Shown here one piece after another: positions 42,160 to 44,739 of a DNA stretch of 64,000 nt. Below the pieces are notes generated by a model that made no database searches, had not been told where the DNA came from, and saw only the letters and a list, made by a program, of their open reading frames with translations. This stretch comes from Chloroflexus sp. Y-396-1. GTDB taxonomy: Bacteria; Chloroflexota; Chloroflexia; Chloroflexales; Chloroflexaceae. The stretch's first letter is position 1. Every line of letters begins with the position of its first letter. The translations under genes were made by a program, and so were the position numbers. The stretch covers positions 1,830,881 through 1,894,880 of the forward strand of contig NZ_KI911784.1 of NCBI RefSeq assembly GCF_000516515.1, in the 5' to 3' direction.

Positions 42160-42684
42160 AAGGGCAGGCACCGGTATTTGTAAAATCAGTGCCTGACTGA
42201 AGAGCATTACCGGTGGCGAGGGCGAACCATTGATGAACGCCTATGCTATTCCCTCGCCTTAATTCCACGCACTGTTGGTGAATTCACACTTTGCAGCAGA
42301 CCGTCTTCGGGATATTCGGCAGCAAAGCGAGTGTGAAATGCTGTAATGTACGCACCAATTTTAGCCGAAACGATGAAATATTTACACGACAGCAAGGTAG
42401 GTTTGGAACCCGCTTCTATCGTAACGATTGTAATGATGACTTCTACAACTATGCTCTTCACACAAAAAGCATTTTACGGACTATAGCAATATTAAGATCA
42501 CACTGAGATTTAAAGGCTCCTGCTGTACAACTAATTGACGGGAACGTTCAAAAGCGTTATCATCACCTACTTACCATTCCATTACTTTATGAGAGAAGAA
42601 CAAAGGAACGTACATATACGAATCCTTGTACCCGATAACCTGACGTTGATTGGCATCTAAGAATCATTAAATCGTTTGGTCGTC
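42160..42684 (+). other. Gene-free interval after ugpB
   Basis: CAGGCAC (42,165-42,171) and GTGCCTG (42,189-42,195) can pair, a weak terminator for ugpAEB. A dispersed element (GGTTTGGAACCCGC) lies at 42,396-42,409. From 42,420 on it is A/T-rich with no credible gene. Confidence 0.45.
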
Positions 42685-43449
42685 ATGCTGACCATCACCA
42701 ATCCCAAAATTGCCGGTTTTGCACCACGCTGGGCCTCATATCGTGGTTTAACCATTCTTTTCGATAACATTGGTTTACGCCGTGACGGCCCATGGTTACG
42801 GCTCGATTGCGCGCTTGATGCAATTCCTGAATATACGCTTTACCGTGGTCTGCGCGCCACGATGTGTCATCTCAATCCCGATCTCCTGTTACAAAAGTAT
42901 CTTTTTTGTGCTCTTCCCCCCTCGACATACCATGTCACTCTATGGGATGGGCCAAACGATGGGAATGTTGGGCAGGCATTACCACACATGCGTCAACGAA
43001 TGGACGATCTCTTGATCGATATTCCTGGTGCACTCAGCCATGGAAACCTGATCAGTGGAACAATCGCCGGTTCACCGCTTATTCGACGGAAAGGGTGGAC
43101 GGTCAGCTTTACCGTTCAAAGGTTGGTAATTGTGCATCAGGCAGCACTGGTGGCTCTGTTAACGCCAACCCCTGAAACTACTGACACCTTTATGACTTTG
43201 AACCAATTACGGAGTACCTGGAATACAACGTTTCGTAATCGGTTTGGCATTGCGGCATACGAACCGTACCTGCCTCACATCACCCTGGGCTATTTCGCGA
43301 ATGCAGCGCTGGCCGACGCAGCACAAAACGAACTTTCACGGTGGGAAGATGTCGCGTTACAACATACGGCCGGTACAAGTATCACTTTCAAGAGCGCCAG
43401 TCTTTACGGCATGCTCGATATGGTTACGTTCTTTCGCACCGTGCGGTGA
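42685..43449 (+). CDS. 2H-phosphoesterase-family protein
   Basis: The protein has 254 aa from ATG 42685. Two HxT/S motifs define the family: YHVTLWDG near residue 83 and LPHITLGYF near 195. The spacing and the flanking hydrophobic strands match LigT / 2'-5' RNA ligase-like enzymes that cut cyclic phosphates or 2'-5' bonds, probably on RNA or nucleotides. No ligase or other RNA gene is next to it. No clear RBS. Confidence 0.72.
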   Translation: MLTITNPKIAGFAPRWASYRGLTILFDNIGLRRDGPWLRLDCALDAIPEYTLYRGLRATMCHLNPDLLLQKYLFCALPPSTYHVTLWDGPNDGNVGQALPHMRQRMDDLLIDIPGALSHGNLISGTIAGSPLIRRKGWTVSFTVQRLVIVHQAALVALLTPTPETTDTFMTLNQLRSTWNTTFRNRFGIAAYEPYLPHITLGYFANAALADAAQNELSRWEDVALQHTAGTSITFKSASLYGMLDMVTFFRTVR

Positions 43450-43595
43450 CGGGGGCAGAGGAACAGCGCTACCATGCCCCTGGCAATACCGCGACCGTCA
43501 GTCAACACGCCAGAGCCGCGCCCACTATCATGAGGTGAACCTGTACCCACCAATGCGGTGACAGGGAGTAGAGGCACAGCGCTGCTGTGCCCCTA
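43447..43595 (+). repeat. Two direct repeats, the second containing a perfect hairpin
   Basis: GCGGTGACGGGGGCAGAGG (43,443-43,461) and GCGGTGACAGGGAGTAGAGG (43,555-43,574) each continue into CAGCGCT and CCCCT. The second contains GGCACAGC-GCT-GCTGTGCC (43,573-43,591), a perfect 8-bp stem. Another dispersed element (GGGAACCCGCCC) follows at 43,628-43,639. Confidence 0.65.
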
Positions 43596-43646
43596 ATGTT
43601 GTCGTGCCTACCATTCAGGGCAGATTGGGAACCCGCCCATACAGAC

Positions 43647-43678
43647 AAAAAAAAGAGACATTGCTACGCAATGTCTCT
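43647..43678 (-). terminator. Intrinsic terminator of the tiny gene
   Basis: On the minus strand GAGACATTGC / GCAATGTCTC form a perfect 10-bp stem (43,655-43,677) with a 3-nt loop, followed directly by a run of 8 T. This is the cleanest rho-independent terminator in the window. Confidence 0.93.
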
Positions 43679-43710
43679 CGCAGAGGAAGGGGTCACCGGT
43701 TCGGTGAAGT

Positions 43711-43758
43711 CTAGCGAGCCTCACCAGCGGTGACGCCCGTATGCTTACTACTACCCAT
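43711..43758 (-). CDS. 15-codon ORF with an exceptionally strong ribosome-binding site
   Basis: ATG at 43,758 to TAG, peptide MGSSKHTGVTAGEAR. On the minus strand AAGGAGGTGAT (43,763-43,773) matches the 16S 3' end complement over all 11 bases, spacing 8 nt from GGAGG. A sigma70 promoter lies upstream and an intrinsic terminator downstream, so the peptide is the only product apart from the RNA itself. A 6-bp hairpin (TCACCG/CGGTGA, 43,693-43,707) follows the stop. The peptide is hydrophilic, has no signal and matches nothing I know. It could be a microprotein, a leader-like regulator or a small RNA. Confidence 0.75.
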   Translation of the reverse strand: MGSSKHTGVTAGEAR

Positions 43759-43815
43759 GGGCATCACCTCCTTCGTGCCTGATCGGCTGTTCAATGTGCA
43801 AATACTGACATAAGC

Positions 43816-43844
43816 ACTATACCTGAGATTTTCGCCAAAGTCAA
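43816..43844 (-). promoter_or_regulatory. Near-consensus sigma70 promoter of the tiny gene
   Basis: Minus strand: TTGACT (43,839-43,844), a 17-nt spacer, TATAGT (43,816-43,821). Five of six matches at each hexamer. Transcription should start near 43,809, giving a transcript of about 160 nt. Confidence 0.85.
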
Positions 43845-43861
43845 GGGCAAAAAAAGCTATC

Positions 43862-43935
43862 CCAACCGGAGTGCATAGAGATCACGGAGAGTTCGACCTG
43901 GAATCATCTCACTCAGTGTGCTCCGTGGTGCGTTT
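43862..43935 (+). repeat. Degenerate relative of the 2.4-2.8 kb repeat
   Basis: CTCACTCAGTGTGCTCCGTGGTGC (43,907-43,930 region) resembles the GCTCTGTGCGCTCCGTGGTGC core of the array at 2401-2780. Confidence 0.45.
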
Positions 43936-43998: not shown

Positions 43999-44739
43999 AT
44001 GGCACCAAAAAAGACATACTACCTCGTCGTGCGTGGGCACAAGCCTGGTCTCTACCAACAATGGCACGGAGCAGAAGGAGCAGCGGCCCAGGTTCAGGGC
44101 TTCCCCAACGCACTTTACAAAGGCTTTGCTACTCTTGAAGCTGCTCATGAATGGATTCGTTCACTCACGCCGGCAAATCAGGCGCTGGCTCAACAGCTCC
44201 TCACAATGTCGAACGCGGTAGACTCTGCTGAACATCTACAGATACCAGCCGACATCGTCGTTATGTACACTGACGGTAGTGCGCTTGGGAATCCAGGGCC
44301 TGGAGGATACGGGGTTGTGTTACGCTACAACCACCATTACAAAGAACTTTCTGGTGGGTTTCGTCTGACCACCAACAACCGTATGGAGCTTATGGCCTGT
44401 ATTCTTGGTCTGAAGTCGTTGGATCGTTCGATACAGGTAAGGATTTACAGTGACTCAAAGTATGTTGTCGACTCCATCCGCAACGGCTGGGCAAAGCGCT
44501 GGCAGGCCAACAACTGGATGCGCAGCAAAACCGAGCCGGCAAAAAATGCCGATCTCTGGGCAGAACTGTTGATGCTCTGTGAACGTCACCAGGTCGAGTT
44601 TATATGGGTTCCTGGTCACAGTGGCGTGCCGGATAACGAACGTTGCCACGAGTTGGCTACTTCAGCAGCGCAACAACCAGATTTGCCACCAGATATTGCA
44701 TTTGAAGCACAGCTCCAGGGGGCTGGTTTGGTAGAGTGA
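43999..44739 (+). CDS. rnhA: Ribonuclease HI with N-terminal hybrid-binding domain
   Basis: The protein has 246 aa. Residues 1-55 form the caulimovirus VI-type hybrid-binding domain of eukaryotic-like RNases H1 (YYLVVRGHKPGLYQQW; NALYKGFATLEAAHEWI). The catalytic domain follows: YTDGSALGNPGPGGYG (first Asp), NNRMELMACILGL (Glu), IYSDSKYVVDSI (second Asp), and PGHSGVPDNERCHELA (His and last Asp). All active residues are present. It removes RNA from RNA:DNA hybrids. Monocistronic, promoter at 43,954. Confidence 0.93.
   Translation: MAPKKTYYLVVRGHKPGLYQQWHGAEGAAAQVQGFPNALYKGFATLEAAHEWIRSLTPANQALAQQLLTMSNAVDSAEHLQIPADIVVMYTDGSALGNPGPGGYGVVLRYNHHYKELSGGFRLTTNNRMELMACILGLKSLDRSIQVRIYSDSKYVVDSIRNGWAKRWQANNWMRSKTEPAKNADLWAELLMLCERHQVEFIWVPGHSGVPDNERCHELATSAAQQPDLPPDIAFEAQLQGAGLVE

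Follow-up and report, generated by a model that had tools for sequence, protein, structure and literature searches.

Background

Switches built from a Shine-Dalgarno (SD) sequence, an anti-SD and an anti-anti-SD are familiar from riboswitches and translational attenuators. The element described here resembles them in having three segments, two exclusive helices and a gated SD, but it has neither a recognised aptamer nor a regulated downstream gene, and its anti-SD is placed inside its own ORF with the competitor behind that ORF. The dual-function small RNA SR1 of Bacillus subtilis is, in the part of its literature considered here, likewise a small stand-alone transcript with a short ORF, from which our element differs in that its SD sits in a conserved switch. 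SR1P is also far longer than the ORF of the element. Taken from sequence alone, the anatomy of the element and its indels in threes would favour a stand-alone transcript whose short ORF is translated.

A third comparison is with type I toxin mRNAs. These share with our element a tiny ORF, an anti-SD within the ORF that hides the SD, and sequential co-transcriptional folds, at least in the portion consulted of a study of aapA3 (PMC6733600, with hok as cited there). The peptides of the element are, in contrast, hydrophilic and divergent, the element is near-universal in its class and usually present in one copy, and it has a conserved post-stop segment that would release the SD by competing for the anti-SD. 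Among the systems compared, aapA3 of Helicobacter is the nearest in mechanism; distribution and peptide chemistry speak against a toxin.

In the sections of PMC2864571 used here, a conserved RNA tied to a short ORF, with indels in threes, is described for the cyanobacterial Downstream-peptide motif / yfr6, where it is the 5' UTR that is structured, ahead of ORFs of 17-100 residues. This motif differs from our element in belonging to another phylum, and those sections describe no SD switch for it. They also list Chloroflexi-1 RNA (RF01698), an RNA motif already named from this genus, for Chloroflexus aggregans; at gathering score the element gives no match to it. Searches with Rfam gave no match at gathering score in the window (the whole stretch of 64,000 nucleotides that was analysed), none at E<=10 for positions 43600-43900, and nothing but tRNA and rRNA near the element in 19 relatives. 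At one related locus (L009), a search at E<=1 returned sub-threshold overlaps with rnk_pseudo (36.4 bits vs 55, E 0.0018) and BSnc120 (20 vs 114). With none at the Rfam threshold, a known RNA family was ruled out. No title or abstract opening in the literature searched describes the element, with most subscription papers and all preprints outside the scope of that search.

Results and discussion

A compact unit on the minus strand

The unit occupies positions 43844-43647 on the minus strand. An earlier note on this DNA had claimed a promoter, an 11-base anti-SD match, 15 codons, a TAG stop and a terminator, all of which are present on that strand. The features are as follows:

43816..43844, minus strand: sigma-70-like promoter TTGACT-17-TATAGT (TTGACT 43844-43839, 17-nt spacer, TATAGT 43821-43816)
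43777..43787, minus strand: 5' leader hairpin GCC-GATCA-GGC (97.2% of cells paired and one double change in 36 family sequences)
43763..43773, minus strand: Shine-Dalgarno sequence AAGGAGGTGAT, an 11-base match to the 16S tail
43759..43768, minus strand: segment A GGTGATGCCC, from the end of the SD to the start codon, B-pairing, identical in 36/36 family sequences
43711..43758, minus strand: ORF MGSSKHTGVTAGEAR, 15 codons plus TAG (ATG at 43758, TAG ends 43711)
43729..43738, minus strand: segment B GGGCGTCACC, within the ORF, 16S anti-SD-like, pairs with A or with C
43688..43697, minus strand: segment C GGTGACCCCT, 3' of the stop, pairs with B at 9/10 positions in the window copy
43647..43679, minus strand: intrinsic terminator, 12-bp stem (G-T allowed) and U run

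Transcription would be expected to start near 43809, and the predicted product is a stand-alone RNA of ~160 nt. A comparable -35/-10 pair was seen by eye at the equivalent position in most of the family copies listed, and a terminator-like hairpin was detected by script in 86/99 relatives; the stem in the window comprises 12 pairs with G-T allowed, rather than the 10 given previously. The sequence AAGGAGGTGAT occurs eight times in the 4.89 Mb genome, and at three sites it follows AAAGGAGGTGATCC in an arrangement that we read as the complement of the 16S 3' end. Another AAAGGAGGTGAT is found in the same genome (L163, 1760830-1760840) ahead of an ORF which by sequence reads like a Flp-type pilin (GQGLAEYGLIITLIALV). 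Promoter-like sites (3 observed vs 2.8 expected from shuffles) and terminator-like sites (5 vs 4.4) are not above chance in the region, and conservation was therefore used as the test of whether the unit is real.

Distribution in the Chloroflexia and beyond

The element was found by BLAST in 8/8 genomes of the genus and, at E<1e-5, in 37/41 genomes of the family. Comparison of relatives, which the earlier note had proposed as a check within Chloroflexus, came out in favour of the unit, as the SD, tiny ORF, stop and terminator are kept and the stems covary. A covariance model of 36 aligned family sequences (R1) matches 39/41 family genomes, 73/82 genomes of the order (54/56 among the good-quality ones) and, at 1e-4, 134/158 genomes of the class Chloroflexia (87/93 of good quality, 69/78 genera), usually with one copy per matched class genome; two divergent copies are present in each of G324, G421 and G429.

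Because weak R1 matches can be false, we inspected 20 of the 62 matched genomes outside the order (E 6e-16 to 6e-7), and by eye each of the 20 has an SD and a tiny ORF with B inside it, as well as a stop and a C-like segment. A terminator-like hairpin comes next in 19 of them, and the other one (L268) instead enters a contig-end inverted repeat; the inverted element copy at that contig end is probably an assembly artefact. Two matches, L245 (E 6.9e-6) and L248 (E 9.8e-5), lack the anatomy and are false. In a sample of 400 genomes from the phylum R1 matched 57, five of these outside the class, and the four of the five that were inspected all show the anatomy. Searching 149 genomes of the phylum of Mycolicibacterium with stricter filters gave no match at 1e-4, although the set holds no positive and the empty result thus shows little.

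Two SD-pattern searches matched 48/400 and 40/400 genomes, many of the matches being ordinary genes or chance, compared to 1/400 and 6/400 for the reversed control patterns. Among the SD-pattern matches, several further families have divergent tiny ORFs with promoter- and terminator-like signals, and divergent versions of the element occur elsewhere in the phylum. A scan with the A-ORF-B pattern that reached beyond the phylum gave 74 stretches, 61 with and 13 without the tiny-ORF anatomy, the latter consisting of 12 titled as other phyla and L121 in a Chloroflexota genome; two of the 13 (L135 and L145) have a short ORF, with the remaining anatomy absent by eye. R1 weakly matches 5/12 of those other-phylum genomes (best E 7e-4). 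A contig titled Candidatus Gracilibacteria (L152, JAAUTF010000045.1) carries a Chloroflexaceae-type copy with a peptide matching that of L031 (G020:C153) from the family of the window, and its title looks wrong. A chance origin of the unit was ruled out by conservation and covariation, and its breadth in the class is about that of a housekeeping RNA.

Two helices compete for one segment

As both helices use segment B, A:B and B:C exclude each other, and since A and C compete for B, they would form a switch sealing or freeing the SD. Neither complementarity (SD region to ORF stretch, ORF stretch to post-stop region) featured in the earlier note, which considered all signals near optimal. That view overlooks the 10-bp helix into which one of the two folds draws the SD together with part of the ORF; the anti-SD match itself is exact.

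In the 36 family sequences, A is invariant and B varies at five positions with all variants still pairing with A (360/360 cells), while B:C is paired in 93.6% of cells with compensatory changes at 4/10 pairs. RNAalifold predicts A:B and the 5' hairpin unaided. The class alignment, consisting of 92 matches from 92 loci (91 distinct sequences), was fitted to A:B and not to B:C, which makes B:C the cleaner covariation test: it is paired in 91.3% of cells, with 91 compensatory cells over 7/10 pairs, compared to 30.8 +/- 6.3 for shuffles and at most 22 for slid versions. For A:B, to which this alignment was fitted, 97.7% of cells are paired and 12 are compensatory; of these 12, 11 fall at the two A positions which adjoin the start codon and are not fixed by the 16S tail. 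At L240 an A-U pair is replaced by G-C at the edge of the SD match. Across these alignments A shows hardly any variation, B changes almost only within A-pairing, and C covaries with B.

Duplex shuffle tests were passed (p<=0.05) by A:B in 93/99 loci overall, including 37/37 BLAST-found and 28/34 SD-pattern-found loci, and by B:C in 68/99, leaving 6/99 and 31/99 loci, respectively, where the test failed. The A:B result of the 28 A-ORF-B-pattern loci is excluded from the evidence, as these were preselected for A:B. For all counts based on the 99 rows (duplex, frame, stop, energy, peptide and codon), 22 loci without stand-alone anatomy had been removed by eye, namely the 13 anatomy-less pattern stretches and L070, L071, L085, L086, L169, L185, L189, L190 and L197; the own-genome loci L161-L168 are also left out, and the script discarded duplicate loci, those with an ORF shorter than 10 or longer than 25 codons, and those truncated at a contig end.

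Folding energies were compared for the RNA alone, with proteins, ribosomes and folding kinetics outside the scope of the comparison. Transcripts ending at B fold as A:B (median probability 0.997). With full transcripts, B:C is favoured in 40 and A:B in 37 of 77 loci, and both folds lie within 5 kcal/mol in 51/77; for rows of the Anaerolineae type, in which C pairs with B's 5' half, C was placed in the wrong register and the energy differences are inflated. In the window copy B:C carries a mismatch and A:B is favoured by 4.3 kcal/mol, and the window RNA folds better than its own shuffles (z = -3.4). Taken together, the comparisons show a tiny ORF that has been kept and, around it, a pair of conserved helices which rule each other out: A:B conceals the SD and B:C leaves it free.

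The frame is kept more strictly than the peptide

A tiny ORF of 12-24 codons is kept across lineages. In the main frame class, the distance from the start codon to B takes the values 18, 21, 24 and 27; the values for the second class are 20, 29, 32 and 35. B lies in frames 0, 2 and 1 in 61, 15 and 1 of 77 loci. Length changes within the main class thus come in threes, a mark of translation. These, and the bias in the terminal parts of the peptide (second residue Ser, Asp or Asn in 72/88 and last residue Arg in 43/88 unique peptides), suggest that the ORF is translated. With B in different frames across lineages, it is the putative translation that is conserved more strictly than the peptide.

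A rival reading of such an ORF is a microprotein gene, where the effector would be the peptide of 14-16 residues and the A/B/C structure would merely autoregulate its translation. Start, frame and stop are kept, the peptides within the family are similar, and the end residues fit this reading, as do the codon third positions just after B (Ala-Gly-Glu), which are the most variable ones in the family sequences. The overall result is mixed, as third positions before B are not the variable ones. Moreover, depending on the frame class, B encodes either G-I-T or A-S-P, so that the peptide core, which follows from the RNA segment, changes where the RNA stays. We therefore consider a microprotein gene unlikely, and of the two proposals in the earlier note, a microprotein or a ribosome-binding small RNA, it is the structured, ribosome-engaging unit that is well supported, with the microprotein the weak one.

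Stop codons are TAG in 62, TAA in 33 and TGA in 4 of 99 relatives, whereas TGA ends 198/437 long flanking ORFs (taken stop to stop and with relatedness ignored); stops read by release factor 1 seem preferred. The similarity of the family peptides, the third positions after B, the terminal Arg and the rarity of TGA could all reflect selection acting on the peptide or on termination. In L013 and L030, CAG replaces the usual stop and the ORF extends to a TGA, giving 21 and 24 codons. Hidden stops in the +2 frame before B number 163, vs 134 +/- 6.6 in codon permutations (uncorrected for relatedness). In the 88 unique ORFs, T-ending codons outnumber C-ending ones by 295 to 98 between start and B, and the ratio is 165 to 325 from B onwards; the excess before B perhaps keeps the loop unstructured.

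A trans-acting RNA or a toxin mRNA as less likely readings

A trans-acting small RNA, in which B or the pyrimidine stretch after C would bind the SDs of other mRNAs and the ORF would be secondary, finds some basis in the anti-SD-like B (reading CACCTCCTTT in the copy at L112) and in the CCCCTTCC or similar sequence which Chloroflexus copies carry after C. We judge it improbable: neither fold leaves B unpaired, the family as a whole has not retained the pyrimidine stretch, and such an RNA would have no need of the start, frame and stop.

Fainter still is the prospect of a type I toxin-antitoxin mRNA, encoding a small toxic peptide with its SD hidden by metastable hairpins. Known type I toxins are mostly hydrophobic, whereas the 88 unique peptides of the element have a median GRAVY of -0.50 (maximum 0.92), and an accessory module would not be expected in 134 of the 158 genomes of the class, usually as a single copy. 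An SD hidden by an anti-SD of the same RNA is indeed found in our element, in the form of the A:B helix and by covariation. The same applies to aapA3 of Helicobacter pylori, where the SD is transiently paired in hairpins with anti-SD segments, of which one lies within the ORF (in the part of PMC6733600 covered). A promoter scan of the region gave one weak plus-strand promoter-like site near the unit (43502-43531, 9/12) and no antisense gene was seen in it.

Genomic context

The unit is one that stands alone. In the window it is flanked by two plus-strand ORFs, one divergent (43999-44739) and the next one downstream convergent (42676-43449), and the neighbouring genes, downstream ones included, differ between lineages. 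The commonest cluster of upstream neighbours (24 ORFs) looks like a LysM lipoprotein, and the upstream neighbour at genus level looks like RNase H. Distant BLAST gave no phage or plasmid match to window positions 43640-43850, and on that basis such an origin was ruled out. Downstream of the terminator, at 43564-43597, there is a short GC-rich palindrome-like repeat; four further sites in the genome carry pieces of it, 23-32 bases long, with 88-100% identity. The combination of leader peptide, alternative hairpins and terminator is typical of a leader or attenuator regulating a downstream gene. With a convergent next gene in the window and downstream neighbours that vary we find this role scarcely credible, and attenuation of a neighbour was ruled out because neighbours change between lineages.

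A probable ribosome-gated switch

The reading we prefer, and hold to be probable from comparative sequence analysis, is that of a usually single-copy housekeeping RNA, widespread in its class, which keeps its own SD under a three-part switch, with a fold dependent on ribosome loading. By the order of transcription A:B would form first, as the default, and would hide the SD unless a 30S subunit had bound A earlier. A bound or translating ribosome would keep A off B, and once C had been transcribed B:C would hold the SD open, so that the fold would record whether a ribosome had loaded in time. If ribosome loading decides between A:B and B:C in this way, then both fold and translation would depend on the ease of ribosome initiation. 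The selected output may be the ribosome-engaged RNA, or the act of translating and terminating on it, more than one particular peptide. Candidate effects in the cell include signalling of ribosome supply, ribosome holding, a short peptide product and pairing with other RNAs.

More tentatively, the element could represent a novel type of housekeeping RNA that monitors ribosome availability as a free-standing sensor, with the RNA in its ribosome-engaged state, instead of a protein, serving as the signal or as a reserve of ribosomes; we see this as a possibility with the balance of expectation against it. Around a tiny ORF such a sensor would combine three elements, namely an SD of its own, a segment copying the 16S anti-SD and a further segment countering that copy, with ribosome loading during transcription deciding the fold and then locking it. 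The element offers a compact natural test of whether an RNA can sense the supply of ribosomes by letting 16S rRNA compete with an anti-SD copy of its own. The gene is too short for the usual gene finders and looks coding to a search for RNAs, yet in its class it is spread about as widely as a housekeeping RNA. That its reading frame is under stricter conservation than the encoded peptide also blurs the boundary between coding and non-coding.
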